Source: Treponema sp. (GTDB lineage Bacteria; Spirochaetota; Spirochaetia; Treponematales; Breznakiellaceae). Taken from it: DNA of 61,208 nucleotides. The DNA is taken from the NCBI GenBank assembly GCA_031256035.1, contig JAIRRJ010000078.1, positions 1 to 61,208 on the forward strand, read 5' to 3'. Positions within the stretch are counted from its first letter, which is position 1. Each line of letters starts with the position of its first letter. A model generated the notes under the pieces. That model was given only the letters and a program-made list of their open reading frames with translations. It searched no databases and had not been told where the DNA came from. Position numbers and translations under genes: made by a program. Below are positions 20,536-56,360 of this stretch, piece by piece.

Positions 20536-23500
20536 ATGCCTTTGAAGTCAAAAACAATCCAATACGCGCTCATTCCCTTGCTTGCGGCTGCGGTAATTTT
20601 TTCCGCCTGTGATTCGCCGATGGGGTTTGGGGATGTCATAGACCTTGAACCGCCGGTTCTGAAAGTAACATTTATTGTACTTCCCGACGGCTCAAAGATA
20701 CCGATTCAATCGGATGAAGATAACAAACTGTTTATCGGCCCCGGCATACTGGTAGGTCCTGGTTTTACTTTGCAGGGGGAGGCATACGATAATGTCCAGG
20801 TTACGGAAGTAAAGGTAGACGGGAAACTTGGCTCAAAGTCCCAAAGCTGGAACAAGGCGAATGTCGGCAGAAGAAGCGGCAATAACTGGCAGACATGGAG
20901 CATAGTCCTTGACGGCATTGAGAAAGGGGAGTGGGTACTCAGAATAACCGCGCTTGACCGTCCGGGAAACATCGGCCCGCAGACGGTAAAGGAACTTACC
21001 CTTATCGTCGATACCGATCCGCCCATTGTAGAGAGCATTAAAATTGAGCGGGCGCCGGGGGTGTTTGCTGATCTGCTGCCGAGGAACAGGCTTCAGTCCA
21101 TGAACGCAAATCTGTTTGCTCATGTAGATTATTTCCAGAACGAGCAGTTTGTGATTCGCGCCGAGATAAATCATGACTATATGCTGGATGAAATACGATT
21201 AAACCTTCTTGACGGCGATACCAAATTGTTCGGGAATGACGGTCTTGAACGGGAGGCAGGGACAAGCCTGTACTCGCCGGCATGGGAAATTACTCAGGCG
21301 ATGCTTTTGGCGGCAAATCCCAAATATGCAAGCGGGAAACACTATTTAAGGGTTCTCGTAACCGCCAAGGCGCGCGCCGGACATTCCGGGCAGAACGAGG
21401 ATGTGAGCAACCTGCTGTACAACCTGTGCTGGTACCCCGAATCTGACTTCCCCCGTATTCCCGATCTGACTGTGCATTTTGAAAACGGAGCGTACCGCAT
21501 CGAAAAAGACAGCCTTCTGCAGGTAAATGCTTTTGATGATGACAATGTGGGCGAGGCATACGTAGCGATGATTGCGGAAAGCTCCTGGAATACCGTATCG
21601 GGAGCCAATGACGAAGCAAAATTACAATGGTTTCAGAACGAAACGAACCGCTATAACTTTTCCGAAGGAGGGGAGTATCCGTTAAGGGATAACAAGATAA
21701 CTTCGCCTCTTAACAACGCCACCATCCCGGTAAATACCGTCAGCGACCGCGGAAATTACAAGCTGGCGGTGCTTGTCCGGGACATTAAGGATGACCCCGT
21801 CAATCGTCCGGCGCTGTGGTCGCACCGGGTGTTTAACATACTTGTTGTTGAAGAGGGTATACCTGACATTACCGTTACAGCGCCTGCTGAAAATTCAAGC
21901 CCGGCGCTGACCGGAGGCAATACCTTTACTCTGAGCGGCTATGTGCTGAACCTTGACGATGTAAACTTTGTGCGGATAGCCTGGATTCCCGCCGGCGCCT
22001 TTGCTGACGCGGACGCGCAGGTTGCGGCAGGCAAGACTGCTCTGAAGGGGAGCGCCACCGGCGTTCTTCCCAACGGCATACAGATATGGCACCACAATCT
22101 TTCACCCGGTACTTCTGAAGAAATAATTCCCGGAAAGTTTTATCAGAAACAGACCTTTAGCCGGAATATCAATATCTTTAATGATTTAAGGTTCAACAAC
22201 CAGCCGGATAACAGAGACAAGCTGTTTGTGCTGTACACTCAGGGGCTGGGCGGAGACGATGTTTTTACCCTGTTCCGCCTCCATGCCTACACCAGATCCC
22301 CGGTTATTACAATAAACACCCCTACCGACTATCAGCCTTTCGGGCCGGGCGCCAATGTACCATTTGATATTACAGTAGCGCCGGAATACGGACTTGCTGT
22401 TGGTACGGTAAGACTGGAGACTGAAAGCGGCTCGAACATACCGCTTACCCGCGTCGGGACCACAAACAGATGGACTGCAGCATGGACTACCCCCGTTGCG
22501 GAGTATATATACGGCTTCCGCGTTATCGCAACGGATACTCTGGGCAACGCAGATGAACAGATGCGGTTTATCGATGTAACCACCCATTCGCAGTTGAGGC
22601 ACATCACCGCAAATCATAATGATAATACCCTGTTCAGCGAAGGGAAAACTATAACCATCCAGGCTGTTTTTTCCAAGTCAGTTAATGTAACCGGCAACCC
22701 CGAAATAGTGCTGTCAGGCTTAAACTCAACCCGTTATGCGGATTATAAGAGCGGCACCGGATCGGCAACATTGAACTTTGAATACACCCCGGCTGCCGGG
22801 GATTTAACAGCGGGAACCAATGTCCTGAGTGCCACAGCAATACGGCTGAACTCTGGTACTATTGACGCTGAAAACTTTGGCGGCGATTTTTCTCTTACCT
22901 CTGCCCAGGCCAAACCGCTGGCTGATAAAGCGCTGAAAGTGGACGCCGTAGCCCCGGTGATACGGAATATTTCCATTCCAGGCCCCACGGATACGACAGG
23001 TCCCACAGAAGATTCCAGATATGCCGGGGATCAGGCCTACCGGCCCTGGCTGAAGGCGGGCAACAATCTTGTAATCAGAGTAAGGGCGGACAAATCCCTT
23101 CGGGTACTTGGAACGCCGCAGTTGATACTGCCGTTCAACAACCGGAGGGCGAATTTCCTGCGTACTGAAAAAACCGGCAGTGAGGATAACGACACGATGG
23201 TCTTTACCTATATTGTACAGACCGGGGATCAAAATGGCACAACGCCGGCTTATGACAGCTTCGTTTCCATCGATATGGCAACATGTATTTCCGTAACTGA
23301 TCTTTCGTCGATCACCGACATAGCGGGGAATATACTGAAGGCCGGCAGCGGCAGCTCCGCAAGCGGCGTGAAAATAGACGCTGTACTCCCCTCCGCGCTG
23401 ACAGTAAGTAATGCAGGCTCATTCCCGGGATATACTCTGGGCGGTACGCTGCAAGTAGGGAATTTCCAAATTGTGGATACAAATACTAAGCCTGATCGCA

Positions 23501-26500
23501 GGATGGTGCAATACTCCCTGAAAGGAGGTACGGACGGATGGACTGACGTTCCTGCCGCGGCTACATTCCCCTATACCATCCCCTCTATTACTGCGGACGG
23601 CACGTATCATGTACAGGCGCGTCAGATAGACCGCGCCGGTAATATTAGCCCTGCGTCCGCAGACGTACGATTTACCGTAGAGTCTCCGTTTGTTGCGGTG
23701 CTGAAAGAGGTAACGTCTCCGCATCCTAAGGACACAAAGTTCAGCGGGAGGGACACAGTAACGATCAACGCTGTTTTTGAAAAGCCGGTTACTGTAACAT
23801 CAGGCACACCGCAGATAGCGCTTGCCGGAACGGGAGGGGCGACACGTTATGCGACATTGGTGGCCGGCAGCGGCAGCGGCAGCGGTTCTACGACGTTGAA
23901 TTTTACCTATACCCCTGTATCCGGTGATTTTACAGCCGACAAGATTACCGCAACTTTGTTTGAACTGAATAACGCTGTCATTTCAGGGCTTGATAATGAC
24001 ATTGCCCTATCCTCCACAGGCAACGCCAAGGCGCTTGCGGATAAAGTTCTGAAAGTGGATGCCGTAGCCCCTGTGATAGATTTGATAACCATACCCGCCT
24101 ACAGCGGGGAAGCGCAATACTCGCCGTGGGTGAGGGCGGGCTATGTATTTGAAATCAAGGTGAGGGCAAACAAGTCGCTTCGCGTGCTTGGGTCGCCCGT
24201 ATTGAACTTGCCGTTCAACAGCCGGACGGCGTCATTCCTCCGCACTGAAACCGGTGTCAATGACAACGACACGATGGTGTTCACGTATACGGTACAGAAC
24301 AACGATCTGCATATTACAAACGTAGCGATTAACCGTTCTAACTGTATCCCGGTTCTAACGTCAATTACCGACGTGGTGGGTGCTGGGAATATACTGACTT
24401 ACGGCGCCAACACCAACGATTCAGCAGCAGGTGTGGGTATACAGGTAGACGCCGTTAAGCCCGATGCGCCTACATTACAAGACAACGGCTCTACTCCCGG
24501 AGGGTATGCTCTGAACAAACAATTGGTAGCGGGTAATTTCCGAATTCTTGGCACGAGCCTTGAGCTTAGCCGTGTGAGGACCGAGTATACGCAGAACGGG
24601 GGAGCGACATGGACGCCTGTTCCTAACGGTCCGCCTCAAAACCAAAATAACATAGACATACCGGTTATAAACACAGCCGGCACGTACAATGTGCAGGCGC
24701 GGCAGGTAGACCGCGCGGGGAATGTCAGTGATGCGTCCGCGCAAATGACGTTTACGATAGTGCCTCCGTTTACGGCGGCGCTTAAAGAGGTAACGTCCCC
24801 GCATCCTGCGAACACAATGTTCAGCGGGAACAACGACCCTGTAACGATCAACGCTGTATTTGACAAGTCTGTAACCGTAACCGGCACGCCGCGGATAGCG
24901 CTGGAAGGAATGGGGACACAGTATGCGGCATATACAGGAGGCGGCGGTTCAACGACATTGAGCTTTACCTATACCCCAACATCCCCTGATTTCACATCCG
25001 ACAGGATCACCGCAACTTCTCTGGAACTTAACGGCGGCACCATTTCGGGGATCGGCGGCAACATTACCCTATCCTCTCTCGCCGGAGGCAACGCCAGATC
25101 TCTTTATGATAAAGCGCTGAAAGTGGATGCCGTAGCCCCTGTGATAGATTTGATAACCATACCCGCCTACACGGGCGATTACGCTCCGTGGGTAAGGGCT
25201 GGCTATGTATTTGAAATCAAAGTCCGTGCGAATAAGCCGCTGCGCGTGCTGGGGTCGCCCGTATTGAACTTGCCGTTCAACAGCGGAAACCGGACTGCGT
25301 CATTCCTTCGCACCGAAAACAATGACACGATGGTGTTCACGTATACGGTGCAGAACGGGGATCTGCATGAGGCAGACGTAGCGATCAACAGATTGAACTG
25401 TATCCCTGACCTGTCTTCTATTACCGACACGGCGGGTGCTGGGAACGTACTGACTTACGGGGCAAGCGCCAACTATACAGGCAATATAAGGGTAGACGCT
25501 GTGGCTCCCGGCGCGCCTACAGTACAAGACAACGGTTCCAGCCCTGTATATACTGTGAACGGTACGCTGCAAACGGGAAATTTCCGTATTCTGGGCTCGA
25601 GCCTTGAGCTTACTCGTGTGAGGACCGAATATACGCTTAACGGCGGAGCGACATGGACAAGTGTACCTAACGGTCCGCCACAAACCCAAAACAACATAGA
25701 CATACCGGTTATAGCCGATGCCGGTACAAAAAACGTACAAGCTCGGCAGGTAGACCGGGCTGGGAATGTAGGCGCAGTGTCCAACCCGATGACGTTTACG
25801 ATAGTGCCTCCTTTTACAGCGGCGCTTAAAGAGGTAACGTCCCCGCATCCCGCGAACACGACTTTCAGCGGGAGGGACACAGTAACGATCAACGCTGTAT
25901 TTGACAAGTCTGTAACAGTAACAGAAACAGGCGGCACGCCGCGCATAGCGCTGACGGGAATGGGTTCGACACAGTATGCGGCATACACGGGCGGCACCGG
26001 TTCTACGACATTGAGTTTTACCTATACTCCGGATGCCAATGATTTTACATCTGACAGGATTACCGCCACGGCGTTGGAACTGAACGGCGGCACCATTTCG
26101 GGGATCAGCGGCAACATTACCCTATCCTCCACAGGCAATGCCAAGGCGCTTTCAGATAAAGCTCTGAAAGTGGACGCCGTAGCCCCTGTAATACAGGACA
26201 TTTCCATTCCCTTTACCGGAGAGGCAGCGTACGACCCCTGGTTCAGAGCCGGCAATGAAATGCAGATCAGAGTCCAAACAAGCAAGCCCATGCGTGTGCT
26301 TGGAGTACCCAAATTAAAACTGCCGTTCAATAACCGGGAAGCGTCTTTCCTGCGCACCGATAAAACCAATGTTGACAATGACACTTTAGTATTTACATAT
26401 ACGGTGGTGAGCGGCGATCAAAACGGTTTGCCAGGCACCACCCCTCCTTATAACGACAACGTTATCATCAATCGGGCGGACTGTATCACAGTTGCTGATC

Positions 26501-29031
26501 TTTCAATAATCACCGACAGGGCAGGATCGCAGGGTAATTTACTTTCGCTTGACGCAGACAGCAGTGATACCGAAGTGAAAGTAGATGCCGTAGACCCCCC
26601 ACAGTTGACAGTACAAGACAATAACTCTACCCCGGCATATACCGCTAACGGCACGCTGCGATTGGGGAGATTCCAAATTACGAGCACAAATCAGGAGATT
26701 GACCGGAAGAGGATTCAATATACCACAGACGGGGGAGCGAACTGGACAAATGTGGAAAACCCCAGCCCCCACAACACTAACCCCATTTCTATCCCCGATA
26801 TTACCGCAGCCGGTATGTACAATGTGCAGGCGCGCCAGGTAGACCGCGCGGGCAATGTCGGCGTTACGTCTGTGCCGAGGACATTTACCATAAGCGGCCC
26901 CCTGAGGCTCGAAACCCTCTCCTGCGACAACCCCGACCGCGCCTATCCGCTCGGTTCAACCCTGACGTTCAAACTTGCCTTTAACGAAAAAGTTTATACA
27001 GCGGGACAGGTCTCTGTAACGCTTGCCGGCGGCTCCGGAGATGTTAATACTGACTATGACGTCCCTATTACACAAGTTATAAAAGACAATGCCGACTTTT
27101 TCCTTATCGGAAGCTGGCAAAATATACCGGCAGGCAGAATCATGGATCCGGTTACAGTAAAGTCAATTAACGGCTTAAACAATGTCAGGCGCTCGTCTGA
27201 CGACGCACCTCCCGACCAATCTAACCTTGCCGCCGTCGTGTCGGCATACAGCCGCCCCAACTTGAAAGTAATTTCAAAAAGGCCGGTTATTGAAAGCTGG
27301 GTAATGAACAATGCAACAAACAACAAAACAGAAACAGCGGTAAATAATACCGCCCCCATCACCCCCAATAACAATACCGTTCTTTTTCCCGAAGGTACAA
27401 AATCAATACTGCGGCTCAAGTTCAGCCACAAAGTATGGGCGGAAAGCGGCGCTTATACAATCACCGTCAAGCCGGCGGGAGACTGGTATATCCCGCCTGT
27501 TATGACCGGCGATGAATATTACAAAGTTACAAGCGCTGCCGGGCTTTTAACCACGGACATACCAGATCTGAACAAAAATTATCAGAAAACCACCCACGGT
27601 CTAAAACAGGTGGGCACTAATTATGTTCCCGATACTGAAACCAAGTATGTGCTGAACTTTACTACTGGAATATCCGGCAATACCGGAACGGTCGATGAGC
27701 TGAGGGCAATTTTTAACAGGGCAAAATTCCGTCAGCAGGAAATTGAAGTAACCGGCGCTCAGATAAAGGCAAACGGAAATCTGTCAATGGCTAACGGCGC
27801 GGAAATAGTGGAAGTTCATCTTGACAGGCTTCTTGACGGGCGGCAATGGAAGATAGAGATTGCCAGCGGTTCTTTCCGGGACGAGGCGGGCAATACCTTT
27901 GATGCCGCTGCTGTCAACAACGCCTGGAATACCGGCAGCAACCGTTCATTCTGGTCTGCAAATACCTCCGTGCCTGTAATCCGGGTGGAACGGGTTTCCA
28001 ATAACAAAGCTGCGGACGGCATTGTTACCAATTATATAGCAAGTACAAACAATAATACTGGTGTAGCTGCTTCAGTTCCTAACTTAAATACATATGCCGA
28101 CAAATATTCCAGCATTACTTCAGTTATGCCAATATCTCAAACAGTTGATCTTGGTACCAATGGTACAAATGCAAATGGAGATGCTATACTCCAGACCAAA
28201 GTTCGTTACCGTATAGACTGCGAGACCCCGGACGCATCCATAAGTTACGCTGTGCTGGGTGGAGGAACCGCTGTGGTTCCCAACAATACTGCTCGCGGCA
28301 CATTATATGATAATGGAAACTACAGGGCAAGCGCTTCCGTCGCTCTTAATATTGGCAATTCAAATATTGCGGACGTAGCTGCCGGAACCTTGAACGCATT
28401 AACTGTTGGTACATCCTACACAGCCGAAAGTTATCTTAATATAGGCGGCGCCGGCAGCCTATATGATGTCAGCGAACTCTATACCGCGCGCAAGGACTAT
28501 ATCGCTGCAACGGCAATACGGAATACGGCTCCTAACCTTACAGGAAGCGCGCGCGGTTTCGAAGGAGCCTTTAAGACGGTAATTGTATTCCGTACTCCTT
28601 TTCAGAATGCTTCTTTTAATGCTCAGGGGGGAACTAATGGAAATGGCACTGACAATTGGGGTTCTGATTATGGTACTCAAGCAAGTTCTAATAAACTCTA
28701 CTATAAGCTGGAAGCTTCCAATAACAACAACGGGGCGGTTACCGTATCGGGCTTCCCGCTTGCGTACAATGATCTTACCGGGAAAAAAAATAAATACATG
28801 TACAGGGTTCCCGATAACAGTGTTGCCGGGTCTCAGGTTAATGACGACAGGGTCTGGATAAGCTGGGAGATTGTCTGTGATTTCTGGGCTGTTCCGATGA
28901 GGATGTTCAGAGCCACTCCCAATTCACCTTTCTTAGGCGGCGATGAAGATGCCTGGACAAATCATTCGGGCGGCGACTGGCACCAGTATCACTACCGTAA
29001 ATACGGCAACTACGGCGTGCGGCACTTTTAG
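20536..29031 (+). CDS. Giant Ig-like lipoprotein A2 (2831 aa), four stalk units
   Basis: The largest protein here. Signal ends at Cys25 (AAAVIFSAC) followed by DSPMGFGDVIDLEPPV as in A1. The N-terminal region (26-686) has CWYPESDFPRI...FDDDNVG near 304 and VRIAWIPAGAF near 477. Four stalk units start at residues 687, 1056, 1416 and 1764 and end at 2122; each has a SwmB-like domain (SPHPANT.FSGRDTVTINAVFDKSV), a second Ig domain (APVIDLITIP...VLGSPVLNLPFN) and an FN3-like domain (NVQARQVDRAGNV). A partial unit follows at 2123. The cap has VPVIRVERV near 2480, YRIDCETPDASISY near 2557, SGFPL near 2738 and WISWEIV near 2774. The units are similar at DNA level, so copy number may change by recombination. 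B2 begins 15 bases later. Confidence 0.86.
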   Translation: MPLKSKTIQYALIPLLAAAVIFSACDSPMGFGDVIDLEPPVLKVTFIVLPDGSKIPIQSDEDNKLFIGPGILVGPGFTLQGEAYDNVQVTEVKVDGKLGSKSQSWNKANVGRRSGNNWQTWSIVLDGIEKGEWVLRITALDRPGNIGPQTVKELTLIVDTDPPIVESIKIERAPGVFADLLPRNRLQSMNANLFAHVDYFQNEQFVIRAEINHDYMLDEIRLNLLDGDTKLFGNDGLEREAGTSLYSPAWEITQAMLLAANPKYASGKHYLRVLVTAKARAGHSGQNEDVSNLLYNLCWYPESDFPRIPDLTVHFENGAYRIEKDSLLQVNAFDDDNVGEAYVAMIAESSWNTVSGANDEAKLQWFQNETNRYNFSEGGEYPLRDNKITSPLNNATIPVNTVSDRGNYKLAVLVRDIKDDPVNRPALWSHRVFNILVVEEGIPDITVTAPAENSSPALTGGNTFTLSGYVLNLDDVNFVRIAWIPAGAFADADAQVAAGKTALKGSATGVLPNGIQIWHHNLSPGTSEEIIPGKFYQKQTFSRNINIFNDLRFNNQPDNRDKLFVLYTQGLGGDDVFTLFRLHAYTRSPVITINTPTDYQPFGPGANVPFDITVAPEYGLAVGTVRLETESGSNIPLTRVGTTNRWTAAWTTPVAEYIYGFRVIATDTLGNADEQMRFIDVTTHSQLRHITANHNDNTLFSEGKTITIQAVFSKSVNVTGNPEIVLSGLNSTRYADYKSGTGSATLNFEYTPAAGDLTAGTNVLSATAIRLNSGTIDAENFGGDFSLTSAQAKPLADKALKVDAVAPVIRNISIPGPTDTTGPTEDSRYAGDQAYRPWLKAGNNLVIRVRADKSLRVLGTPQLILPFNNRRANFLRTEKTGSEDNDTMVFTYIVQTGDQNGTTPAYDSFVSIDMATCISVTDLSSITDIAGNILKAGSGSSASGVKIDAVLPSALTVSNAGSFPGYTLGGTLQVGNFQIVDTNTKPDRRMVQYSLKGGTDGWTDVPAAATFPYTIPSITADGTYHVQARQIDRAGNISPASADVRFTVESPFVAVLKEVTSPHPKDTKFSGRDTVTINAVFEKPVTVTSGTPQIALAGTGGATRYATLVAGSGSGSGSTTLNFTYTPVSGDFTADKITATLFELNNAVISGLDNDIALSSTGNAKALADKVLKVDAVAPVIDLITIPAYSGEAQYSPWVRAGYVFEIKVRANKSLRVLGSPVLNLPFNSRTASFLRTETGVNDNDTMVFTYTVQNNDLHITNVAINRSNCIPVLTSITDVVGAGNILTYGANTNDSAAGVGIQVDAVKPDAPTLQDNGSTPGGYALNKQLVAGNFRILGTSLELSRVRTEYTQNGGATWTPVPNGPPQNQNNIDIPVINTAGTYNVQARQVDRAGNVSDASAQMTFTIVPPFTAALKEVTSPHPANTMFSGNNDPVTINAVFDKSVTVTGTPRIALEGMGTQYAAYTGGGGSTTLSFTYTPTSPDFTSDRITATSLELNGGTISGIGGNITLSSLAGGNARSLYDKALKVDAVAPVIDLITIPAYTGDYAPWVRAGYVFEIKVRANKPLRVLGSPVLNLPFNSGNRTASFLRTENNDTMVFTYTVQNGDLHEADVAINRLNCIPDLSSITDTAGAGNVLTYGASANYTGNIRVDAVAPGAPTVQDNGSSPVYTVNGTLQTGNFRILGSSLELTRVRTEYTLNGGATWTSVPNGPPQTQNNIDIPVIADAGTKNVQARQVDRAGNVGAVSNPMTFTIVPPFTAALKEVTSPHPANTTFSGRDTVTINAVFDKSVTVTETGGTPRIALTGMGSTQYAAYTGGTGSTTLSFTYTPDANDFTSDRITATALELNGGTISGISGNITLSSTGNAKALSDKALKVDAVAPVIQDISIPFTGEAAYDPWFRAGNEMQIRVQTSKPMRVLGVPKLKLPFNNREASFLRTDKTNVDNDTLVFTYTVVSGDQNGLPGTTPPYNDNVIINRADCITVADLSIITDRAGSQGNLLSLDADSSDTEVKVDAVDPPQLTVQDNNSTPAYTANGTLRLGRFQITSTNQEIDRKRIQYTTDGGANWTNVENPSPHNTNPISIPDITAAGMYNVQARQVDRAGNVGVTSVPRTFTISGPLRLETLSCDNPDRAYPLGSTLTFKLAFNEKVYTAGQVSVTLAGGSGDVNTDYDVPITQVIKDNADFFLIGSWQNIPAGRIMDPVTVKSINGLNNVRRSSDDAPPDQSNLAAVVSAYSRPNLKVISKRPVIESWVMNNATNNKTETAVNNTAPITPNNNTVLFPEGTKSILRLKFSHKVWAESGAYTITVKPAGDWYIPPVMTGDEYYKVTSAAGLLTTDIPDLNKNYQKTTHGLKQVGTNYVPDTETKYVLNFTTGISGNTGTVDELRAIFNRAKFRQQEIEVTGAQIKANGNLSMANGAEIVEVHLDRLLDGRQWKIEIASGSFRDEAGNTFDAAAVNNAWNTGSNRSFWSANTSVPVIRVERVSNNKAADGIVTNYIASTNNNTGVAASVPNLNTYADKYSSITSVMPISQTVDLGTNGTNANGDAILQTKVRYRIDCETPDASISYAVLGGGTAVVPNNTARGTLYDNGNYRASASVALNIGNSNIADVAAGTLNALTVGTSYTAESYLNIGGAGSLYDVSELYTARKDYIAATAIRNTAPNLTGSARGFEGAFKTVIVFRTPFQNASFNAQGGTNGNGTDNWGSDYGTQASSNKLYYKLEASNNNNGAVTVSGFPLAYNDLTGKKNKYMYRVPDNSVAGSQVNDDRVWISWEIVCDFWAVPMRMFRATPNSPFLGGDEDAWTNHSGGDWHQYHYRKYGNYGVRHF
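22594..26901 (+). repeat. Four tandem coding repeats of about 1.05-1.1 kb in A2
   Basis: Units begin at 22594, 23701, 24781 and 25825 and the array ends at 26901 (1107, 1080, 1044 and 1077 bases). Units 2-4 are closest: the start CTTAAAGAGGTAACGTCCCC recurs at 24781 and 25825, and a 54-base stretch at 24049-24102 is exactly repeated at 25117-25170. The first unit is more diverged. Unit 2 also holds a short GGCAGC hexamer run near 23871-23888. Confidence 0.85.
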
Positions 29032-29046
29032 GAAGGAGGAGAGAAA

Positions 29047-32000
29047 ATGAAAACACGGAACCGTATAATAACAATTTGCGCCCTGGCGGCGCTTGCCGTT
29101 TTCTCCTCCTGCGATGGCCCTCTCGCGCTGGGTACCAGGCTGAATATAGTCCCGCCGGAAATTACTATCGACAGGCCGGACTTTATGGAAAACATAAAGG
29201 ATACGCTTGAAATTTCAGGAACAGCATCCGATGACGATGAGATTGTGTCCCTGTTTATTACCGTGGAAAAAGTAAGGGGCGCCGCGTGGAAACATGAATG
29301 GCACGGCGAGCGCGGCAAATGGCGCAGCAGCGGAGACGGGAACGACAGTAAAGGCGGTTGGACCGCCAAGGGGAAGGGCAGAATCAACTGGTCTGTATCC
29401 TTGTCCATGATCGGCGCTCCAAGCGGGGAGTACCTGATCAGCGTAGGAGCGGAAAACAACGTAAAAAACCGCGGCGCCATGGCGGAGAGGCGCGTTGTAA
29501 TTGACACTGAGCATCCGTTGGTAACAGTGCTTAACCCGGTGCTGTGGTTTGATGACCATGAAGGCCCGAATAATTATAATTTTGCCACAGACGTAGAACC
29601 AGAATTCAATAAATGGAAACTGCGCGATCCGGCGGTGCTGGACAATCTGCACAACAAGAGCATTACCCTGCAATATGAAGTAAAAGATGATTTTTCAATA
29701 GCCAAACTCCGTTTCAGACTTGCGGACAGTACCGGTAGTGAAATATACTATGACGCCGCTGTTCAGAATCCGAACTGGAACGGAAGATTTGTTATAGACG
29801 GAAAACTGATACTTGACCCCAATACTGGCAAGCCTTTCTCCATAGGCGAAACCGATAAATGCTATATGCAGCTTGTAAGCTATGCTGAGGACAACGCGGG
29901 GAATTATGAAAACCGCAGCCACGGCTGGCTGGTCTGGTGGCCCAAGGCTGATCTGCCCTGGACGACCGGGGTGGGGCATGAAAACAATCCCGATCTGTTT
30001 CAGGTATATCCGGGTTCCAAAGTTCAGAGCGGTCAGGCCTATGACAATGACGGAGTGGCAAAGGTAGCGTACAGGATTTTCAAGCAGTCAACTCCTTCCA
30101 ACTACGACATTCCGGTTGATGTGGGCGAATATATAAACCAGCCCATGGATGAAAACTCTAATCCTTCCCGGTTCTGCAGTTGGAGCTTTGACGCCCCGGC
30201 GGACAGCAATGATTACATGATTGAAATAACCACAAGCGACATATTCGGAACAAAGGGTACGGACATAAGGTACTTCCATGTATACCACACAGACGCGCCC
30301 GATATTAAGATAACCAGCCCCAACCCGGATGAGCCGTTGTTTGGGAACACTAGCGGCGCCTTTACAATCGGCGGTACAGCCGATGACGGAGTCGAAGTTG
30401 CGGAACTTAGGCTGGTCTGGCTTAAGCCTTCAACGAGTTCCAACAGCCGTATGCTGTACCAGTCCAGCGAGTACGCCGGATGGAACGTCTCAAATGGCTC
30501 TACAGATTCTGACGGAAACAAGGTTTGGGTTCTGACCCTTGGGAGCAATACACTGAACCCGGCAACCAGCCGGTATGAAAAAACGTTCAGCAAAACTATT
30601 AACCTGTTCGGCACAGGAGCAGACAATTTGAATATCGGTACAACAGCAGGTCAGGTTCCCCTCTCCGCCCAGTCATTTGTACTGCGGGTAAAGAGCGACT
30701 CAGGCAGGTATGTTACCAGATTCCATTCGGTAAAGGGGGACATATCGCCGCCGGAAGTGAACATTGACACGGTTAAAGTACAGCGCAGCGGCGCCGAAAT
30801 AGCGTCATACGATGCCGCTCAACTGAGAAGCGGCGCGTCCATGAACGCCCTTGAAATGAACGATAAGGTATTCATAAGCGGCACATGGTGGGACGATTCG
30901 CTTGACGCATGGCAGACAGCAGGGTCTGCCCGCATGAGATTTAATGCAACATGGAACGGTTTGTCTGTTGCAGAAAACACAGCTTTTACTGCGGCATCGG
31001 ACTTAGGTTGGAAACCCGGCAGATTATGGAAAGGAACATGGACTGCCGCGCTGACGATACCCGCTGCGGAAACTGATAAGGGGAGCGCGCGCATTGAGGC
31101 GTCCCTAGCGGATGTGGGAGGCAATAATACAATAGCTTCTCTTACCGCGCAGGTGGATACCAAGCTGCCAAGGCTTATGTCTATTACCAGTGAAACGCCG
31201 AACGGCAGCTATAGAATTGGGCAGAAGATAGATATCCTGCTTGATTTTAACAAGGATGTAACCTATGCCCACCCCACAAGCAGCCCTCCAACCCTGTCGC
31301 TGAATACTACTCCGCCTGCGTCCGCTGTTTATGAAAGCGGCAATGGGACAAGAGTGCATAAATTCACATATACCGTTGGTTCGACCGAGAATACTCCTTC
31401 CGCCTCTTCTCTGAATGTGTCAGGCATTAATACTCCTTCCGGCGGGACGTGGACGGGTTCGGGCGGCAACGCAAACGTGGCATCCATCCCTCAAAACCTT
31501 AACTATACCAAGAATATCAGGATAGACAATGTTCCCCCAATCATAACGAGCATTAAATCCCTGAGCGGTTCGGCGACAGACCCCAATTATTACAATGCGG
31601 GGAAAATAGTCTACGTCCAGGTAATATTCAACAAAGAGATGAAGTTTACGCCGGGAACCGGAACCGTCTTAAGATTTAATCTTGCTTCAGGCGGCGGAAC
31701 GGGAATCGCCCCCGCGGTGCTGACCGGAAATAATGATACACTGTTGTTTACCTATACCGTCTCCCAGGGCGATAATACGCCGGTAACCGGAACCGCCGGG
31801 ACTGCATCATTCAATTACGGCGATTCGTTACGTGCCACAGGCATTACATTGGGAACCAATGCCTCTCTTACCGATCTTGCAGGCAATTCCGCTTTACTAA
31901 CTATGCCGACTGGGCAAAATATCCATGAAAGCACTAACATGCGGACAATATACATAGACACCCTTGCGCCTGCTTCCGCGCCGGCAATTGCCGGCATTAC

Positions 32001-35000
32001 TAACGGAACTTTTATGGATGGTACCCAGAGCTTTACCATAAGCGGCGAGAATTTTGCAAAGTTGGAATACCGGCTGAATACTGCCGGTTCCTGGATTCCG
32101 TATCAGAACACCGCTGTACCATTGCCTAATGGGACATATAAAATAGCGGCGCGGCAAACCGACCTGGCGGGGAATGTTTCGCCCGTATCGTCAGAAATAG
32201 ACATTACCATAGAGCCGAAAGAGGATGCTCCGAAACTCATGTTTATTACCAGCGGCACGGATGACGGCTGGTACAGAGTTGGTAAGTTAATAGACGTAGA
32301 GCTGAGTTTCAACGAAAATGTAACATTTAACAGCGCCGGCAGCAGCCCCACCCTGACGCTGTCTGACGGATGCGGCACTGCCGATTGGGTTTCGTCCAGT
32401 AACGGCGGCAAACAGCATAAATTCATATATGAAGTTGAGTCAACACATAACAGCGCCCGGCTGAGTGTGCAAAGCATTAATTCCAACGGCGGGACATGGA
32501 TGGGCAAGGGCGGCGCCGCAGTCATGACTTCATACCAAAACCTGAACGTAACCAAGGATCTCAAGATAGATAATAATGCCCCGCGCATATTGAGCGTAAA
32601 ATCCTCATCCGGTACGGCTGGAGTAGACAATTATTACAACCTGAATAAACAGGTTTACATAACGGTAACATTTGACAAGCCTATTCAGTTTACAGAGGGT
32701 ACTAATAATGCAACCTTGTTAAATTTAAACCCCGGTTCGGGAAGTACGGCAATGGCGGGAAAATCCCCGCAGTTGAGCGGCAACAATGCGCTGTTGTTCA
32801 CCTATACCGTAGTCGCAGACAATAATACGCCGGCAACCACAACCGGCACGCCGCCTGCCCTGGTATCTTACGGCGATTCGTTACGCGCCACAAGCATTAC
32901 ATTGGGAACCGGGACAAACAACGCCGCTATTACCGATCTTGCGCTTAATCCCGCTATACTCACTATGCCGGTTGGGCAAAATATCCATGACAACAGTGAT
33001 GCCCCCCGTGCAATATTCATTGACTCAAGAACCCCGCCAATGCCAACTTTTGGTACACCGCCTGCCGATAATTCAGTTTTCATGTATCCGAATCTCCCGA
33101 CTTTTACCCTGAGCGGCGAGGGTCAGGCGACACTGGAATACCGGTTGAATACTACCGGCTCCTGGATTACCTATACGACCGGCACCGCAACGCTGCCCGG
33201 CGTAGGCAAATATGAAATATCGGCGCGCCAAACTAACAAAGCGGGAACATCTTCATCCGCAACGACTCCGATTAATGTTACCGTAGAGCCGAATGAGGCG
33301 CAGCCCAAACTCATGTTCATTACAAGCGACAATACGGACGGCTGGTATAAGGTGGACGCGTCTAAGCCGGTAGACATAGTTCTGGAATTTGACAAGCCGG
33401 TTACCTATAGCGGCGGCACCCCCACTCTGACGCTGTCTGACAGCTGCGGTAACGCAAGCTATGTTACAGGCGCCAATGTTACTGCCAGCAGGCACGTATT
33501 CAGATATACAGTAGCTGCAGGGCATAAAAGCGACCGGCTGAGTGTGCAAAGCATTAATAAAGGCACCGGAGAATGGAAAGACAAATGGGACGCTGTCGCA
33601 GACATGACTGCATACCAAAACCTGAATGAAACCAAAGATATAAGGATAGACACGATTGCCCCGATCATAACGAGCATAAAATCTTCAAGCCTTTCCGGTC
33701 ATTACAATTCGGGGAAGATAATCTACGTTACTGCAACGTTCGACAAACCCATTCAGTTTACACCCGGCGTAACTAACGCAACCCTGTTGAACTTGAACGC
33801 CGGTACAGGCGCGGGAAAACTACCGCAGTTAAGCGGCAACAACGCGCTGCTGTTCACCTATACTGTAGAAAACGGCAATAACACGCCGGCGACCACAACC
33901 GGCACGCCGCCTGCCCTGGTATCCTACGGCGACTCGTTAAGAGCCGCAAGCATGACATTGGGAACCGGCGCGAGTATTAAAGATCAAGCCGGAAATGACG
34001 CAAATATCAATATGCCGGCGGCGGGGGGTAATATCCATGAAGGCACCGGCGCCCGTACAATATACATAGACACCAGAACCGTTCCTTTGCCTACATTCCT
34101 GACAGCGCCGGCAAATAACCATGTTGCTATGGATACCGTGGGCACTCCTGTAACCTTTACCCTGAGCGGTGAAGCCTTGGCAACTGTGGAATATCAGTTG
34201 AATACAGGCGGTTCCTGGTTTACGTATGGCGGTCAGGTAGCGCTGCCCGGCGTAGGGAAGTACCAGATAGCGGCGCGCCAGACTAACCTTGCCGGGACTT
34301 CTTCGAATGCGACAGCGGCGATAAATGTTGAAATAGAGTCGTTTGAGGCTGCGCCCCAATTCATGTTCATTACCAGCGACACGGATGACGGCGAGTACAG
34401 ACAGGGTAAGGTGATAGACATAGTGCTGGAATTCGACAAGCCCGTTACCTATAGCGGCACTGCTCCCACCCTTGCGCTGAATACAGGGGTGAATGCCACA
34501 CGGCCTGCAACTAATGATGGTAATGGGACCAACCGGCACCGTTTCACCTATACCGTTGGCGCAGGGCATAATGTTACCCGGCTGAGTGTAACAAGCATTA
34601 ATGCCGGCGGCACGTGGACGGGCAAGGGCGGCACCGCATTGATGACTATATCCACAGGCAAAAACCTGAACGAAAACAAGAATATAAAGATTGACAACAT
34701 TGCCCCAAAAATATCGAAGATAAAAACCTCCAGCGCTGACGGTTATTACAATCGGGATAAACAGGTTTTCATAACGGTAATGTTCGACAAGCCCATTCAG
34801 TTTACACAGGGTACTAATAACGCAGCACGGTTGAATTTGAACGCCGGTACCGGGAGCGCGGGATTATCCCCGGAGATGAGCGGCAACAATGCCTTGATGT
34901 TCACCTATACCGTAGAAAATGGCAATAACACGCCGACAACCGGAAGCGTGGATACGTTCAATTACGACAACTCGTTAAGAGCCGAAAGCATTACATTGGG

Positions 35001-37179
35001 AACCGGAGGAGCAACTATTACCGATATAGCGGGCAATACCGCTGTCCTGACTATGCCGGCGGGAGAAAATATCCATGAAGGCGATGCCCCCCGTACAATC
35101 TACATAGACACCATCGCTCCCGCAGCCGCGCCGGGAATTACAGGTATTGCTGCCGGAACCTATGTTTCAGCACAGACCTTTACCCTGACCGGCCTGGAGA
35201 ATTTGGCAAAGTGGGAATACAGGCTGACGACCAACGGTTCATGGAATACCTATACCAACGCTGTAAACCTGACCGCCGGGACTTATCAAATAGCGGCGCG
35301 TCAAACCGACAGAGCGGGAAATTCATCGTCCGTAACGACAACTCCGATACAAATCACCATAGAGACTGCCAGCAGCCTCTTGCAGAGCTTTGGCGGCAGT
35401 CCGCCGGGCACCTACACCGCCGCCGCCGGGAAGAGAGACATAATTATTACACTGAATCTGCGGGAAGCTGTCGATGTCAGCACCACAAGGCCGAGACTGT
35501 TGCTTAACATAACGGGTACCCCAAAATATGCCGAATTCCTTGATGGTTCGGGTTCAAAGACATTGAGATTTTCATACACTGTGGTTGACGGCGATAACAT
35601 AGCTTTGCTGGAAATTTCACAGATAGTTATGACCGGCGTTGCCCTGACAAGAACAGGCTATCCCTTAATTAACCTGACAAGTCAAATGCCGGTAAATTCG
35701 TCCAGCGACTATTGGCCGGGCAATTTCAGCAAGTACACCGGCATCACAATCGACACGACCAGGCCTGCATTGGAGAGTCAGGCAAATAACGGCGTTACAT
35801 ACAACGAAGCCACGGATGTGCTTCATTTGAGATTCACCAAACCGGTTGAAAAGGGAGCGGGGGAGATCACCCTTACCCAGACAACCGGCTTCAGGGCGCC
35901 CGCGGTTCTGACTAAAGCCGAGTATGAACGCTATCACATTAACAACAATACGCTGGCTACTTATTATCAGGTGGGGACTAACGGCACGTCGAATACAGGA
36001 ACGCCCGATCTGAGCGAGAAATACATCCTGAGATACGATATTAACGCAGACGGCTCCAATAACGGTACTTTGATTCAGGATGTTAAAAACAGCGGGGCGG
36101 ACAAGGTTGTAATCCCGGTCGTTTCCGGCACGGTAAGCCTTAGCGCCGATAAAAAAACCATGAACATTAACCTCGGCGGCAGGCTGCCCGTAAAGGGAGT
36201 TAATTATTATGTTACATTCCCAGCAGGCTTTGTTGTGGATGAACTGAGCCATACGATTGCCGCCCTCGACACGACCGACAACAGGACGATTACCAATCCG
36301 GGTGTAAACAAACCGTTCGTCCGCATACAGAAGCTGCCGGGAGATATTTCAGGGACAGGCGCCACCCTTGCTACTACCCAGCCGGGCACCGCCAATTTCA
36401 AAATTGACTGCCAGACCCCCGGCACGACGATCAGGTATAATAATAATTCTGTAACAACAACACCCAAGACCGGTAGACCAGCCGGAACTGATGATGGTCC
36501 ATTTAACGGGACGAGTCATCCTGCAAGACCTGTCGTTAATTTTGGCACTGTAGCAACCAGTACTGCCGGTACTACATACACAACTATGAATTCGGCTATT
36601 GGATTAGGAGCGACCGCTACTGATCAAAACGGCTATCTTTACTGTATCAGCGCGATTGCGTACAAAACCACTACAGATACCAGTGAAACATCTTTTGAAA
36701 CCGCCGCCCGTTCGGTTGTCAGGATTAACGCCATCAACAGTGTTCCTAGTTGGGGTAACATTACAAGTGCCACACAGACCGGTGGTAATAAAGTCCAGCT
36801 CTGGATGCGGGGCGGGGACGGCCTTTCAGGCAATAACCTGACGCCCGGATTCCCCCTGTCATGGGATGACAAAGACCCTAAGGGCATAAAGCTAATGACC
36901 GAAACAGGTACAGGTGGTAACTGGTACTGGATTACCTGGGATGTTGCCGACAGGGCGTTTATCCATTTTGTACTCGGAACTACCAGCACACCGGCTGATT
37001 TGGCAAACGGTCCGCATAAATGGGCATGGATTAGGGATCATTGGGCGTTCCAAAACGATAAATTCCCGCTGTACGCCGGAGGAAGCCTTCTGTTTACCAC
37101 CGGTACCGGTGGTACAGTAACCACCACTAACGCAACCAATCAGGTTAGTTTCGGTACCATATTTACCGGCAGCAGGTAG
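29047..37179 (+). CDS. Giant Ig-like lipoprotein B2 (2710 aa), four stalk units, partner of A2
   Basis: Signal ends at Cys22 (LAVFSSC), then DGPLALGTRLNIVPPEI, the B-type start. N-terminal region: GEYLISVGAENN, WWPKADLPWT...AYDNDGVAKV near 300-345 and LRLVWLKPS near 456. Four stalk units start at residues 708, 1062, 1420 and 1770 and end near 2109; each has a SwmB-like domain (PKLMFITS.TDDGWYRVG), a second Ig domain (YYN..K.VYITVTFDKPIQF with TLLNLNPGSG) and an FN3-like domain (LEYRLNT.GSW ending IAARQTDLAGN). The partial unit SLLQSFGGSPPGTYTAAAGK starts at 2110. The cap has KPFVRIQK, FKIDCQTPGTTIRY, LWMRGGD, PGFPL and WYWITWDV. GGAAGGAGGAG precedes the ATG. A strong terminator follows. Confidence 0.86.
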   Translation: MKTRNRIITICALAALAVFSSCDGPLALGTRLNIVPPEITIDRPDFMENIKDTLEISGTASDDDEIVSLFITVEKVRGAAWKHEWHGERGKWRSSGDGNDSKGGWTAKGKGRINWSVSLSMIGAPSGEYLISVGAENNVKNRGAMAERRVVIDTEHPLVTVLNPVLWFDDHEGPNNYNFATDVEPEFNKWKLRDPAVLDNLHNKSITLQYEVKDDFSIAKLRFRLADSTGSEIYYDAAVQNPNWNGRFVIDGKLILDPNTGKPFSIGETDKCYMQLVSYAEDNAGNYENRSHGWLVWWPKADLPWTTGVGHENNPDLFQVYPGSKVQSGQAYDNDGVAKVAYRIFKQSTPSNYDIPVDVGEYINQPMDENSNPSRFCSWSFDAPADSNDYMIEITTSDIFGTKGTDIRYFHVYHTDAPDIKITSPNPDEPLFGNTSGAFTIGGTADDGVEVAELRLVWLKPSTSSNSRMLYQSSEYAGWNVSNGSTDSDGNKVWVLTLGSNTLNPATSRYEKTFSKTINLFGTGADNLNIGTTAGQVPLSAQSFVLRVKSDSGRYVTRFHSVKGDISPPEVNIDTVKVQRSGAEIASYDAAQLRSGASMNALEMNDKVFISGTWWDDSLDAWQTAGSARMRFNATWNGLSVAENTAFTAASDLGWKPGRLWKGTWTAALTIPAAETDKGSARIEASLADVGGNNTIASLTAQVDTKLPRLMSITSETPNGSYRIGQKIDILLDFNKDVTYAHPTSSPPTLSLNTTPPASAVYESGNGTRVHKFTYTVGSTENTPSASSLNVSGINTPSGGTWTGSGGNANVASIPQNLNYTKNIRIDNVPPIITSIKSLSGSATDPNYYNAGKIVYVQVIFNKEMKFTPGTGTVLRFNLASGGGTGIAPAVLTGNNDTLLFTYTVSQGDNTPVTGTAGTASFNYGDSLRATGITLGTNASLTDLAGNSALLTMPTGQNIHESTNMRTIYIDTLAPASAPAIAGITNGTFMDGTQSFTISGENFAKLEYRLNTAGSWIPYQNTAVPLPNGTYKIAARQTDLAGNVSPVSSEIDITIEPKEDAPKLMFITSGTDDGWYRVGKLIDVELSFNENVTFNSAGSSPTLTLSDGCGTADWVSSSNGGKQHKFIYEVESTHNSARLSVQSINSNGGTWMGKGGAAVMTSYQNLNVTKDLKIDNNAPRILSVKSSSGTAGVDNYYNLNKQVYITVTFDKPIQFTEGTNNATLLNLNPGSGSTAMAGKSPQLSGNNALLFTYTVVADNNTPATTTGTPPALVSYGDSLRATSITLGTGTNNAAITDLALNPAILTMPVGQNIHDNSDAPRAIFIDSRTPPMPTFGTPPADNSVFMYPNLPTFTLSGEGQATLEYRLNTTGSWITYTTGTATLPGVGKYEISARQTNKAGTSSSATTPINVTVEPNEAQPKLMFITSDNTDGWYKVDASKPVDIVLEFDKPVTYSGGTPTLTLSDSCGNASYVTGANVTASRHVFRYTVAAGHKSDRLSVQSINKGTGEWKDKWDAVADMTAYQNLNETKDIRIDTIAPIITSIKSSSLSGHYNSGKIIYVTATFDKPIQFTPGVTNATLLNLNAGTGAGKLPQLSGNNALLFTYTVENGNNTPATTTGTPPALVSYGDSLRAASMTLGTGASIKDQAGNDANINMPAAGGNIHEGTGARTIYIDTRTVPLPTFLTAPANNHVAMDTVGTPVTFTLSGEALATVEYQLNTGGSWFTYGGQVALPGVGKYQIAARQTNLAGTSSNATAAINVEIESFEAAPQFMFITSDTDDGEYRQGKVIDIVLEFDKPVTYSGTAPTLALNTGVNATRPATNDGNGTNRHRFTYTVGAGHNVTRLSVTSINAGGTWTGKGGTALMTISTGKNLNENKNIKIDNIAPKISKIKTSSADGYYNRDKQVFITVMFDKPIQFTQGTNNAARLNLNAGTGSAGLSPEMSGNNALMFTYTVENGNNTPTTGSVDTFNYDNSLRAESITLGTGGATITDIAGNTAVLTMPAGENIHEGDAPRTIYIDTIAPAAAPGITGIAAGTYVSAQTFTLTGLENLAKWEYRLTTNGSWNTYTNAVNLTAGTYQIAARQTDRAGNSSSVTTTPIQITIETASSLLQSFGGSPPGTYTAAAGKRDIIITLNLREAVDVSTTRPRLLLNITGTPKYAEFLDGSGSKTLRFSYTVVDGDNIALLEISQIVMTGVALTRTGYPLINLTSQMPVNSSSDYWPGNFSKYTGITIDTTRPALESQANNGVTYNEATDVLHLRFTKPVEKGAGEITLTQTTGFRAPAVLTKAEYERYHINNNTLATYYQVGTNGTSNTGTPDLSEKYILRYDINADGSNNGTLIQDVKNSGADKVVIPVVSGTVSLSADKKTMNINLGGRLPVKGVNYYVTFPAGFVVDELSHTIAALDTTDNRTITNPGVNKPFVRIQKLPGDISGTGATLATTQPGTANFKIDCQTPGTTIRYNNNSVTTTPKTGRPAGTDDGPFNGTSHPARPVVNFGTVATSTAGTTYTTMNSAIGLGATATDQNGYLYCISAIAYKTTTDTSETSFETAARSVVRINAINSVPSWGNITSATQTGGNKVQLWMRGGDGLSGNNLTPGFPLSWDDKDPKGIKLMTETGTGGNWYWITWDVADRAFIHFVLGTTSTPADLANGPHKWAWIRDHWAFQNDKFPLYAGGSLLFTTGTGGTVTTTNATNQVSFGTIFTGSR
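31168..35373 (+). repeat. Four tandem coding repeats of about 1.02-1.07 kb in B2
   Basis: Units begin at 31168, 32230, 33304 and 34354 and the array ends at 35373 (1062, 1074, 1050 and 1020 bases). Recurrent blocks include TTCACCTATACCGT, CTGAGTGTGCAAAGCATTAA, and the GGCGATTCGTTACG segment. The unit is close in length to that of A2 but different in sequence, so the two arrays were amplified separately. Confidence 0.85.
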
Positions 37180-37413: not shown

Positions 37414-40400
37414 ATGTTGAAACGGACGTTATTTTTTTGTGTTTTGCTGGCAGTATGCGCCGCCGGCATTTGGGCGGCAGGCAGAAAAGACAATATCTCC
37501 CGTTCAGCCGACGATCCTTCGGGCTTTACCGATACTATGGATACCTCCGAACACAAGCCGGGAAAGTATAACTTTTATCTTGAGGCTACGGACAAGGCGG
37601 GAAACATAATGCGCGCCGGTCCTGATAATATCTGGATAGACCCCGAATCAGACCTTCCAAGAGCGAAGATAATTAACCCTGTTCCCAATATGCGCATCCG
37701 GGGCAACCTCAACATAGTGGGAAGCGCGATAGATGACGACGGCGTGGATTATGTCGAGCTTATGATTACAAGGGGCAAGGACGGTAAGGGCGAAGTAATG
37801 GCTCATGTCCGTGCGGAAGGCGCGGAGTATTGGTCGTATTTTCTGGACACAACTGATGTTTCGATATGGACGGACGGGGTGTATACCATTACCGCCTGGG
37901 CGGTAGATATAAACGGCCTGTCCGGCATATCGGAAAGATTCAAACCCAAAGCGCACAAGAAGCATCAGGTATACTGGCACCTTGACCGGTACAAGCCTGA
38001 AACCAAAGTATTAAGCCACGAAATCGGCGCGCTTGTAGCCGGGAAAATACGCATGAGAGGCAATGTTGCGGACGGCAACGGAATAGATTCATTTGCGTAC
38101 TCCGTTGACGGCGGACACCGCTACATCCCCATAAAAACCAAATACGATAAAAGAAATAATATTTACAACTGGGATTTGGACATCAACACCAAAACATTAA
38201 AAGACGGTCCTCAGGTTATCTGGTTTCAGGCGAGAGACGGGCAGGGGACAATAGGCAAGGCTGCCCATCTGTTGTTTGTAAACAATTCCGGCCCCGATGT
38301 GCAGATTGTTTACCCGGAGCCTCATGCCGTTGTGAACGGAATTTTTTCAATCGCAGGCTACGCGCTCCACCCGGTAGGGCTTAAATCCGTTACATGGAAA
38401 ATGGGAAAAGAAACTGGCTCATTCCCGCTGTTAATCGGAAACCACTGGTGGTCAACCGATCTTGATATCCGGGGCGTTAAAACCGGAAATGTTGAAATTG
38501 AAATCCGCGCCGAAGACGTATCAGGAAACGTAACAATAAAAAAACAAAAATACAAAGTCGATCAAAACGCAGACCTTCCGGTAATAACCTTGCAGCAGCC
38601 GGCAGCCGGAGCGGTCATTGAAAACGGAACAATTCATGTAAAAGGTTTTGCCAGAGACAATGACGGCGTATCTTCGGTGTTCTATTCGCTTGATTCCGCT
38701 CCCGCTGTGGAAATCCCCTGCGCAGGCTTCTTCCAGTTTTTAATAGAGAACGTACAGGCGGGAAGCCATGTTCTGGATGTTTGGGCTGTTGACGTAACCG
38801 GCGTAACCGGCCACAAGGTTCAGGTAAAAGGGCTTGTCGTTCCAAGCGCGGCTCCTGAACCCCGGCTTACGATGGTAACAGGCGGTTCGGGTAAAACGGC
38901 GGTTGTAAAAGAGTTTTATACCGGCATGACCATAATTCCCGAACCGAAACTGACGGCTGAATTTACCGTGAGGGCTGAAAGCCTCGCCTCGGCGTCAATT
39001 AGATTCGGCGATTTTCCTGCGGCAGTTGTAAAACCAAGCCAGGGGAAAGACGGAGTGTTCCGTGCAAATGTGCCAATACCGGTCAATATGCCGGAAGGCC
39101 TTGCCACAATAACATTGCGTGCGGCGGATAAAATGGGGCGTGAAACTATTTGGGAAGAGAATGTATTTTTCGGCTCAAATAAACCCTATGATTTTTTCCA
39201 GTGGATTAAGCCGGTTTATAACGACGAAGGGTGGATTGTTTTTGCATCGGGAAATGAAGTTCTGACCGGGTTTGGCGCAAATACGTTTACAGCCGCTGAA
39301 CTGGAAGGTCAAGGAGCGGATAGATTAAGGGCTAATCTTGACGGACACGGACGGGTGCAGCTTACCGTTACAGGGGAGGGCAGTTTCGGCCCGCTTGCCT
39401 TAAAACTTACGGACGACAGCTACAACAGCTACAACAGTCAGCAATTTTATATATTGGCGGATTTCTCCGCCCCTTTGGTAACAATACTGGAAACTCCGCG
39501 GAATGAAGGCGCATGGGTGCAAAACGATGTTCCCGTTAAATTTAACATAACAGGCAGCAGAATCAGGGCTGTTGAATGGTCGCAGGACCTTGGCGATACC
39601 TGGATGCCGCTGCTTGCAACCGCAGATGTCGCCGCCTTTGGAGCGCGCGCCAACGCGACTGTAGATCGTGTTCTGAATATCTCCGCGCTGGAAGACGGCT
39701 CTGTAACCATCTTGATCAGAGCGGTTAACGAATCGGAAGCGTCTTCTTTTGCCCACTTTACCGTGCAGAAAGACACCTCCCCTCCGCAGGCAAGACTGAT
39801 AATGCCTGTTACAGACGCCAGAGTAAACGGCACCATAAGAATTGGTTTTGAGATAAAAGAAGCCGGAAAGTTAAAATCCGTTGTTTACAAAAGACCCGCA
39901 AAAGAAGACCTTCGCGAAATAACGCGGGAAGTGTACCCGTCTTTTGAATGGATAAAGGACTATTCCCCTCTGTTCCTTGAAGTGCAGATGGACGCCCTTG
40001 AAATGCCGCTGGACGAAAACATGGTCTTTACTTTTGAAGACAATGCGGGAAACAAGAGCGAAGTCAGCTACTGGGATTTTGTCATCGACAATGAGATGGA
40101 CCTTCCGGTGGTGGAAATATCCCTGCCGCTTGAAGACGAAGTTATTACAACTGACTTTATCGTCTCCGGTATCTGTTACGACGACGACGAGGTTGAGAGG
40201 ATATACTTCAGAATAGACGACAATCCCGAACAGATGATCGAATGTAAATACGGTTTCTCTATCCCCGTATACCTTTCAACCATGACTGACAATGAACATT
40301 CGGTTACGATATACGCTCAGGATATTTACGGCGTAAAGGGCGAGCCTGTTACGCGTAATTTCCGCATATCTCTTGCTGAACCGACCGCGAAAATAGCCTA

Positions 40401-53948: not shown

Positions 53949-53975
53949 CAGCCTCCTTCGGGAGGCTGTTTTTTT
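53949..53975 (+). terminator. Intrinsic terminator after B3
   Basis: Stem CAGCCTCC / GGAGGCTG with a TTCG tetraloop and seven T. The hairpin also stands after the minus-strand gene whose stop is at 53974-53976, but on that strand there is no U-run, so it acts mainly for the plus strand. Confidence 0.92.
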
Positions 53976-56255: not shown

Positions 56256-56278
56256 ACTTTCCTCCTGTTTAAATAACA

Positions 56279-56360
56279 ACGAACCACACGAACTATTACT
56301 CTGAAATCTCTCTTTGTTCGTGCAGGTTTGTGTGCGTACCATAGGTACGAGTTCGTGGTA
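56279..56360. repeat. Short palindromic repeat related to the centre of the pyrK insert
   Basis: ACGAACCACACGAAC at 56279-56293 faces GTTCGTGCAGGTTTGTG at 56316-56332 and GTTCGTGGT at 56351-56359; a CGTACC-ATA-GGTACG palindrome lies within. It matches the inner unit of the pyrK element. It forms the spacer before the LolA-like gene and supplies the last codons of the MMPL gene. Confidence 0.7.

Follow-up and report, generated by a model that had tools for sequence, protein, structure and literature searches.

Matched triad numbers in adjacent pairs of stalk-like proteins from Treponema and its relatives

Why should two neighbouring genes, each encoding a long array of repeated domains, arrive at the same number of repeats? 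The question is raised by a 61,208-nucleotide (nt) stretch of DNA from Treponema sp. (GenBank assembly GCA_031256035.1, contig JAIRRJ010000078.1, positions 1 to 61,208), here called the window, a single contig from a draft genome of 3.12 Mb. Six large genes of the window form three adjacent pairs, A1/B1, A2/B2 and A3/B3. A first-pass annotation of this sequence had counted four three-domain units, or triads, in both A2 and B2 and one in each of the other four proteins, and had attributed the match to selection for equal stalk length. We find that partners have equal numbers of triads in all 49 complete pairs that could be counted, and that at least four lineages depart from 1:1, each time with the same number in either partner. 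It is suggested here, as a rather probable explanation, that A and B could form a two-stranded rod in which triad lies beside triad.

Triad arrays of the A and B proteins

A2 (20536..29031, forward strand, 2831 amino acids, aa) and B2 (29047..37179, forward strand, 2710 aa, starting 15 nt past the A2 stop) are lipoprotein-like and carry four triads each, a triad being two related domains, S, followed by one Big_13/FN3-like domain, F. Triad profiles were trained on one-triad relatives, with A2 and B2 excluded and A1, A3, B1 and B3 included. They gave four full matches in A2 (residues 686-1050, 1054-1408, 1414-1756 and 1762-2120; 184-204 bits), four in B2 (residues 708-1057, 1062-1415, 1419-1764 and 1770-2106; 226-276 bits) and one apiece in A1, B1, A3 and B3 (261-315 bits, these four belonging to the training set). 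With domain-level profiles the S-S-F order appears four times over in both A2 and B2 and a single time in each of the others, so that the original counts are confirmed by both kinds of profile. A weak match of half length (33-52 bits) follows the last full triad in A1, A3, B1, B2 and B3, and corresponds to a single S-like domain that opens the C-terminal part.

On the forward strand the A2 triads lie at 22588..23688 (S 22588-22950, S 22951-23388, F 23389-23688), 23689..24768 (S 23689-24066, S 24067-24459, F 24460-24768), 24769..25812 (S 24769-25134, S 25135-25506, F 25507-25812) and 25813..26898 (S 25813-26181, S 26182-26595, F 26596-26898). Those of B2, each again S, S, F, lie on the same strand at 31168..32229, 32230..33303, 33304..34353 and 34354..35370. 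Their lengths are 367, 360, 348 and 362 aa in A2 and 354, 358, 350 and 339 aa in B2, close to the ranges first given (348-369 and 340-358 residues; 348-367 and 339-358 as measured here), and the arrays as a whole measure 1437 and 1401 aa. Units of one protein are 38-88% identical per domain, far above chance. Within a triad the S domains proved related to one another (hhalign E 3.5e-13 in A and 2.1e-20 in B), and hhalign detected no relation between S and F domains. The description of the triad as two SwmB-like domains and one FN3-like domain stands in its composition, but the name SwmB was not supported: SWM/SwmB models, which both libraries should contain, were absent from the matches at E <= 0.1 in Pfam (A1-A3, B1-B3) and in NCBIfam (A1, B1, A2, B2). 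The F domain is Big_13-like, of the OmpL47 type.

The A and B proteins resemble each other as well. A2 and B2 align over residues 16-2779 and 13-2633 with 22% identity (E 5e-88, with composition correction and the low-complexity filter off), and a C-terminal profile of either family matches 44/44 members of the other at E < 1e-5. A and B are thus homologous from end to end, and we take them to be two ancient paralogues. Because of this homology a 1:1 pair may simply have been inherited as such, and only departures from 1:1 are informative.

Both proteins are probably lipid-anchored at the N-terminus, since a hydrophobic start is followed by a lipobox-type cysteine. In the A proteins this cysteine is invariant (12/12 aligned rows); in the B proteins it is present in four rows, those that include the start of the gene; eight more rows were begun at the cysteine itself and are uninformative. 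In A1, A3 and B3 the cysteine is preceded by T or V, which lies outside the classic lipobox. For the region from the triads to the C-terminus, Pfam matches in five A and five B proteins were weak or scattered, leaving the C-terminal parts without a family name. A sequence search of solved structures with the A profile for this region gave one weak match (AlyQ, E 0.046). Plasmid sequences yielded two matches, both weak and partial.

Triad number among relatives

Relatives were collected with profiles of the N-terminal part, which found B-type genes in 38/390 genomes drawn from the order and 10/296 drawn from the phylum (both at E <= 1e-20), and in 29/200 genomes of one genus (g12) and 22/195 genomes of the window's own family (both at E <= 1e-30); the four sets overlap, those for order and phylum are drawn samples, and many of the assemblies are drafts. 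A homologue is also present in 4/4 genomes of a distant family, f31. Used by itself, the A profile marks such genes poorly, with matches at E <= 1e-10 in 152/390 genomes, many of them confined to the first 155 of its 612 positions. Complete adjacent pairs available for counting numbered 44 in the order, two in family f6 and three in f31.

Triad number was equal in both partners in 49/49 of these pairs, 40 of them being 1:1, seven 0:0 and two 4:4. Clearly unequal pairs, named beforehand as the result that would speak against matched lengths, were looked for and none was found among the 49. The 4:4 pairs are pair 2 of the window and pair a of the f31 genome G557; the 0:0 pairs are those of G170, G243, G299, G388 and G408, together with pair b of G557 and pair b of G536, the latter genome also belonging to f31. 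The f31 pairs have one additional S domain in each partner, so that this feature is matched too. Two F domains in the first gene of G557 pair a were missed by the single-domain profile and are spanned by the triad profile, and in G536 pair b a very weak F match (10 bits) lies within the C-terminal part of one partner. Frames of 3147 and 2715 aa (G557:C1 and G536:C198) were considered as possible fusions and proved on fetching to be separate adjacent pairs.

Pairs that were cut, interrupted or unfetched were left out (G005, G010, G021, G034, G060, G079, G083, G098 on contig C117, G245, G250, G299 on C86, G326, G363, G372, G385, G397, G404 and pair a of G536). Where these can be read, G034, G079, G098 C117, G363 and G397 have one triad per partner if their fragments are taken apart; in G299 C86, B contains one triad and A contains one that is partly cut; G021 has a single triad in B, with fragments of an A triad spread over two contigs; and of the partners in G536 pair a, one has four triads and the other is cut. 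In G250, A is 1058 aa long and B is cut at the contig edge; the pair reads as 0:0, and the N part is also shorter in both. The other excluded pairs do not allow a count in both partners, and none of the excluded pairs conflicts with matching.

Also left out were A-like frames with no B neighbour in G310 (contig C15) and G376 and a single relative in G515. The two A-like frames (L111:638-5296 and L108:4545-8447) have an altered N-terminus, and G310 also carries a normal A/B pair elsewhere. The G515 protein (L174:12398-19927, 2509 aa), a single case, is apparently unpaired and has an irregular S/F array unlike that of the paired proteins.

Since relatives share ancestry, changes of triad number carry more weight than counts of pairs. 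At least four changes were matched and none unmatched, namely those of the 4:4 pair of the window, a 0:0 clade of five genomes, G250 and family f31. In trees of the N parts, built without the triads, the five order-level 0:0 pairs form one clade for both A (100/96) and B (92/86), and pair 2 of the window groups with the 1:1 pairs of G016 and G017 in both (100/100). When G250 is added, each tree needs three changes, and these fall at the same pairs in A and B (the 0:0 clade, G250 and pair 2 of the window's genome). Family f31 contributes at least one further matched difference, 4:4 against 0:0 within one genome. As A and B hold the triad at the same place, loss is favoured over an ancestral state for the pairs with zero triads. 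With no unequal pair among 49 and matched departures from 1:1 in at least four lineages, the earlier proposal of selection for equal stalk length is supported.

The matching is far closer in the arrays than beyond them. Across the 44 order-level pairs the lengths of the triad arrays of the two partners gave r = 1.00 (Spearman 0.77, mean difference 17 aa), and those of the C-terminal parts r = 0.35 (Spearman 0.39, mean difference 95 aa); such correlations are inflated by common ancestry, and it is safer to rely on the number of changes. In G016, G017, G087 and G173, B has inserts of some 160-210 aa close to its C-terminus that have no counterpart in A, and one f31 partner has an unmatched C-terminal extension (1807 against 1330 aa). 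The weak matching of C-terminal lengths, together with these unmatched inserts and extension, indicates that the coupling concerns the stalk and not overall size.

A rod in register and its alternatives

The history of the arrays was followed in a tree that sampled 18 pairs and contained 42 triads, 21 from A and 21 from B. A branch with 100/100 support divides the A triads from the B triads without exception; within these halves the four A2 units make up a single clade (100/98), as do the four B2 units (100/99). Because their units form separate clades, the A2 and B2 arrays grew separately, as had been proposed from the differences between their repeats, but this independence concerns the expansion and not the proteins, which are homologous throughout. 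When the units are numbered t1 to t4, their branching order is alike in both arrays, (t1,(t4,(t2,t3))), supported at 99/95 and 100/99 (A2) and at 100/92 and 100/99 (B2), and a larger tree agrees. Five orders are possible if only neighbouring units duplicate, so that a shared order is by itself modest evidence (one in five). The domains of A2 are also a mosaic, t3 and t4 being the most similar units in the first S, and t2 and t3 in the second S and in F, which implies conversion or shifted crossovers inside each gene. In G557 a different picture is seen: units t2-t4 cluster by gene, the two t1 units fall together, and all eight lie on the B side of the tree. This expansion started either with two or more units already in the array or with an array that was homogenised within each gene.

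We think it rather probable, on the evidence of these sequences, that A and B make up a two-stranded rod in register, with the chains running parallel from the membrane. Both chains would be anchored at the N-terminus by lipid, and each would proceed outward from an immunoglobulin (Ig)-like N part through the S-S-F array to the C-terminal part. Parallel chains would bring the two C-terminal parts to equal height, where they could act together. The gain or loss of a triad in one chain would put these heads out of step, and only lineages with the same change in the partner would then persist. Lipid anchoring, physical contact, the parallel register, joint heads and the surface location of A and B are what we infer in this proposal. 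It would account for the difference of whole triads in both genes together, for the shared extra S and for the drift of lengths beyond the array.

Several points weigh against the rod. The 40 pairs that are 1:1 may reflect plain inheritance. The matched changes are few, about four, which is a narrow base for statistics, and the position of G250 differs between the quick trees of A and B, which makes its branch uncertain. No 2:2 or 3:3 pair was seen among those counted, and the steps from one triad to four would have to be assumed. The r of 1.00 for the arrays is carried by the classes of zero, one and four triads, and the lengths of the N parts are correlated as well (r = 0.79, Spearman 0.62, mean difference 40 aa; 44 pairs). 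Finally, neither partner of an f31 pair can be identified as A or as B, given the placement of the G557 triads, and the f31 pairs may have come from a duplication of their own.

The most serious alternative, although we regard it as fairly unlikely, is that A and B are separate rods that do not touch and must each span the same external gap, for instance a surface layer or the periplasm. Matched counts are equally expected from this, and A and B do have the same kind of N-terminus. However, pairs of unequal size coexist in one genome (1:1, 4:4 and 1:1 in the window; 4:4 and 0:0 in G557), so that no single cell-wide distance can set stalk length and each pair would need one of its own; nor does a common reach predict the unit order shared by A2 and B2. 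Lying side by side along a fibre and reaching the same distance from the membrane are not separable by sequence, yet contact is somewhat favoured because an extra S is found in both f31 partners, the branching order of A2 and B2 is the same, and the C-terminal parts are only weakly matched in length.

Inheritance and chance would explain the data if most pairs descend from 1:1 ancestors and a few changes coincided by luck. The preponderance of 1:1 pairs and the small number of independent changes suit this idea, but every change seen is common to both partners and reached the same number each time. The length-weighted probability that the three changes in B would fall on the three branches that changed in A is about 3e-5 to 4e-5, and for the two better-sampled changes alone about 3e-4; these are rough values that ignore the added agreement in the triad number reached. 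We therefore consider coincidence improbable.

It is very improbable that A on one cell binds B on another, or that both bind the ends of one ligand, so that a gap between cells favours equal length. This is compatible with matched counts and has no positive evidence, and the arrangement of the genes fits a complex of one cell better. In 44/44 order-level pairs A is followed by B on the same strand, although the pairs were chosen as neighbours and adjacency is in part by construction; the B frame opens anywhere from 127 nt upstream to 57 nt downstream of the A stop, start codons being taken as the first possible ones, and such spacing is operon-like. Mutational coupling, in which repeats are copied between A and B by gene conversion or both genes are expanded by one recombination event, can be put aside as extremely improbable: the genes do lie next to each other, with homology throughout, and the first triads of the G557 partners group together, but A-to-B conversion as the cause in the window is rejected in view of the separate triad clades on either side of the 100/100 branch, which largely refutes the idea there, and one crossover cannot extend both genes with gene-specific repeats.

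Protein X, neighbouring genes and known stalk proteins

The remaining pairs of the window, all on the forward strand, are A1 (8308..14391, 2027 aa, triad at residues 814-1231, about 10747-12000) with B1 (14404..20298, 1964 aa, triad at 826-1270, about 16879-18213), and A3 (42362..48010, 1882 aa, triad at 719-1108, about 44516-45685) with B3 (48022..53937, 1971 aa, triad at 804-1190, about 50431-51591). Between pairs 2 and 3 lies gene X (37414..42321, forward strand, 1635 aa), which encodes a Big_7/Big_13 array and a conserved C-terminus; the latter ends in phenylalanine and by eye resembles an outer-membrane barrel. X is far more conserved than A and B, with 51-58% identity to the X of the window, and is more widely spread (47/195 own-family and 156/200 g12 genomes at E <= 1e-50). 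X-like frames occur in 15/63 stretches scanned, many of which end too early to reveal the neighbour, and in several relatives they adjoin A or A/B genes; X was not found in G011 or G017. A sequence search of solved structures with X returned one weak match (E 0.0075). We read X as a likely outer-membrane member of the structure to which A and B belong.

In several genomes X adjoins giant lipoprotein-like frames instead (L158:973-16440, L159:766-12516, L160:962-11152 and L161:713-10921 are frames of this kind, some directly beside X). Eight giant frames of 3,379-5,155 aa were examined as possible A-B fusions and rejected, as they share the N-terminal domain of A and have no full triad. A 249-aa frame elsewhere in the window's genome (G000, contig C83:61593-62138) matches only the barrel-like C-terminus of X, and a 384-aa frame of G010 has a similar match. 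Adjoining pair 3 on the opposite strand (53974-58983) are genes for an MMPL-type transporter and a LolA-like protein, of a kind that handles lipids or lipoproteins, and fliW and the 3' part of a flagellin-like gene occupy the left end of the window (1-1049). The A and B proteins of G031 and G011, from the window's genus, are those of the Treponema sp. metagenome assemblies Cyl330_bin39 and Emb289P3bin141, which, to go by the sample names, appear to be termite-gut Treponema.

Stalks of variable repeat number are known. Periscope Proteins (SasG, Aap, Rib, Sgo_0707 and others) are defined in a review as single chains with highly identical repeats (PMC9704523; see also PMC8201768). A and B are like them in being tandem arrays of individually folding domains, presumably at the surface, whose number varies among relatives (0, 1 or 4 triads among homologues) and would shift the reach of the functional end. 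They differ in that their units are 38-88% identical per domain, short of the highly identical repeats of that definition, and in that two homologous chains change repeat number together, which we read as a two-chain rod; in the main text of PMC9704523 the word 'partner' does not occur. More tentatively, and as something a little short of an even prospect, A and B could be a heterodimeric 'double periscope', homologous rods locked domain by domain, in which length could change only by compensated steps in both genes and the register would serve as a code of partner specificity. Each pair, 1:1, 4:4 and 1:1 in the window, would on that tentative reading assemble only with its own partner.

Other comparisons are less close. 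For LigA and LigB of Leptospira we know of no matched partner, and Big_2 is not among the Pfam matches of the window proteins (Big_13, Big_7 and others); LigA and LigB too are spirochaetal surface proteins with tandem Ig-like domains (see PMC7821625). The OmpL47-type model NF047446 of NCBIfam, scanned against A1, B1, A2 and B2, recognises the F domain above its cut-off of 40 bits in A2 (49.8) and B2 (78.1), falls below it in B1 (22.5 bits) and does not match A1. It covers one third of the triad, and its name says 'beta-barrel' yet its matches overlap Big_13/FN3-like stretches. Intimins and invasins are likewise outer-membrane-anchored Ig-like stalks of variable repeat number (PMC3008723 and PMC9704523), but they are single chains with an N-terminal barrel, whereas A and B are probably anchored by lipid, and the barrel-like protein X is encoded separately. 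Among the titles and abstract openings listed for the open-licence literature there was no description of paired or matched repeat number, or of Treponema proteins of this kind, which suggests that the matched pair is what is new, variable-repeat stalks being already known as single chains.

X, A and B together point to a conserved envelope structure in gut Treponema and relatives, one that to our knowledge has been undescribed so far. Matched pairs would also allow one to examine how far a complex accommodates additional whole domains. If it is true that repeat numbers have changed together over deep time, they would constitute a natural record of physical register, from which sequence alone would predict which proteins pair, in which direction and along which segment.
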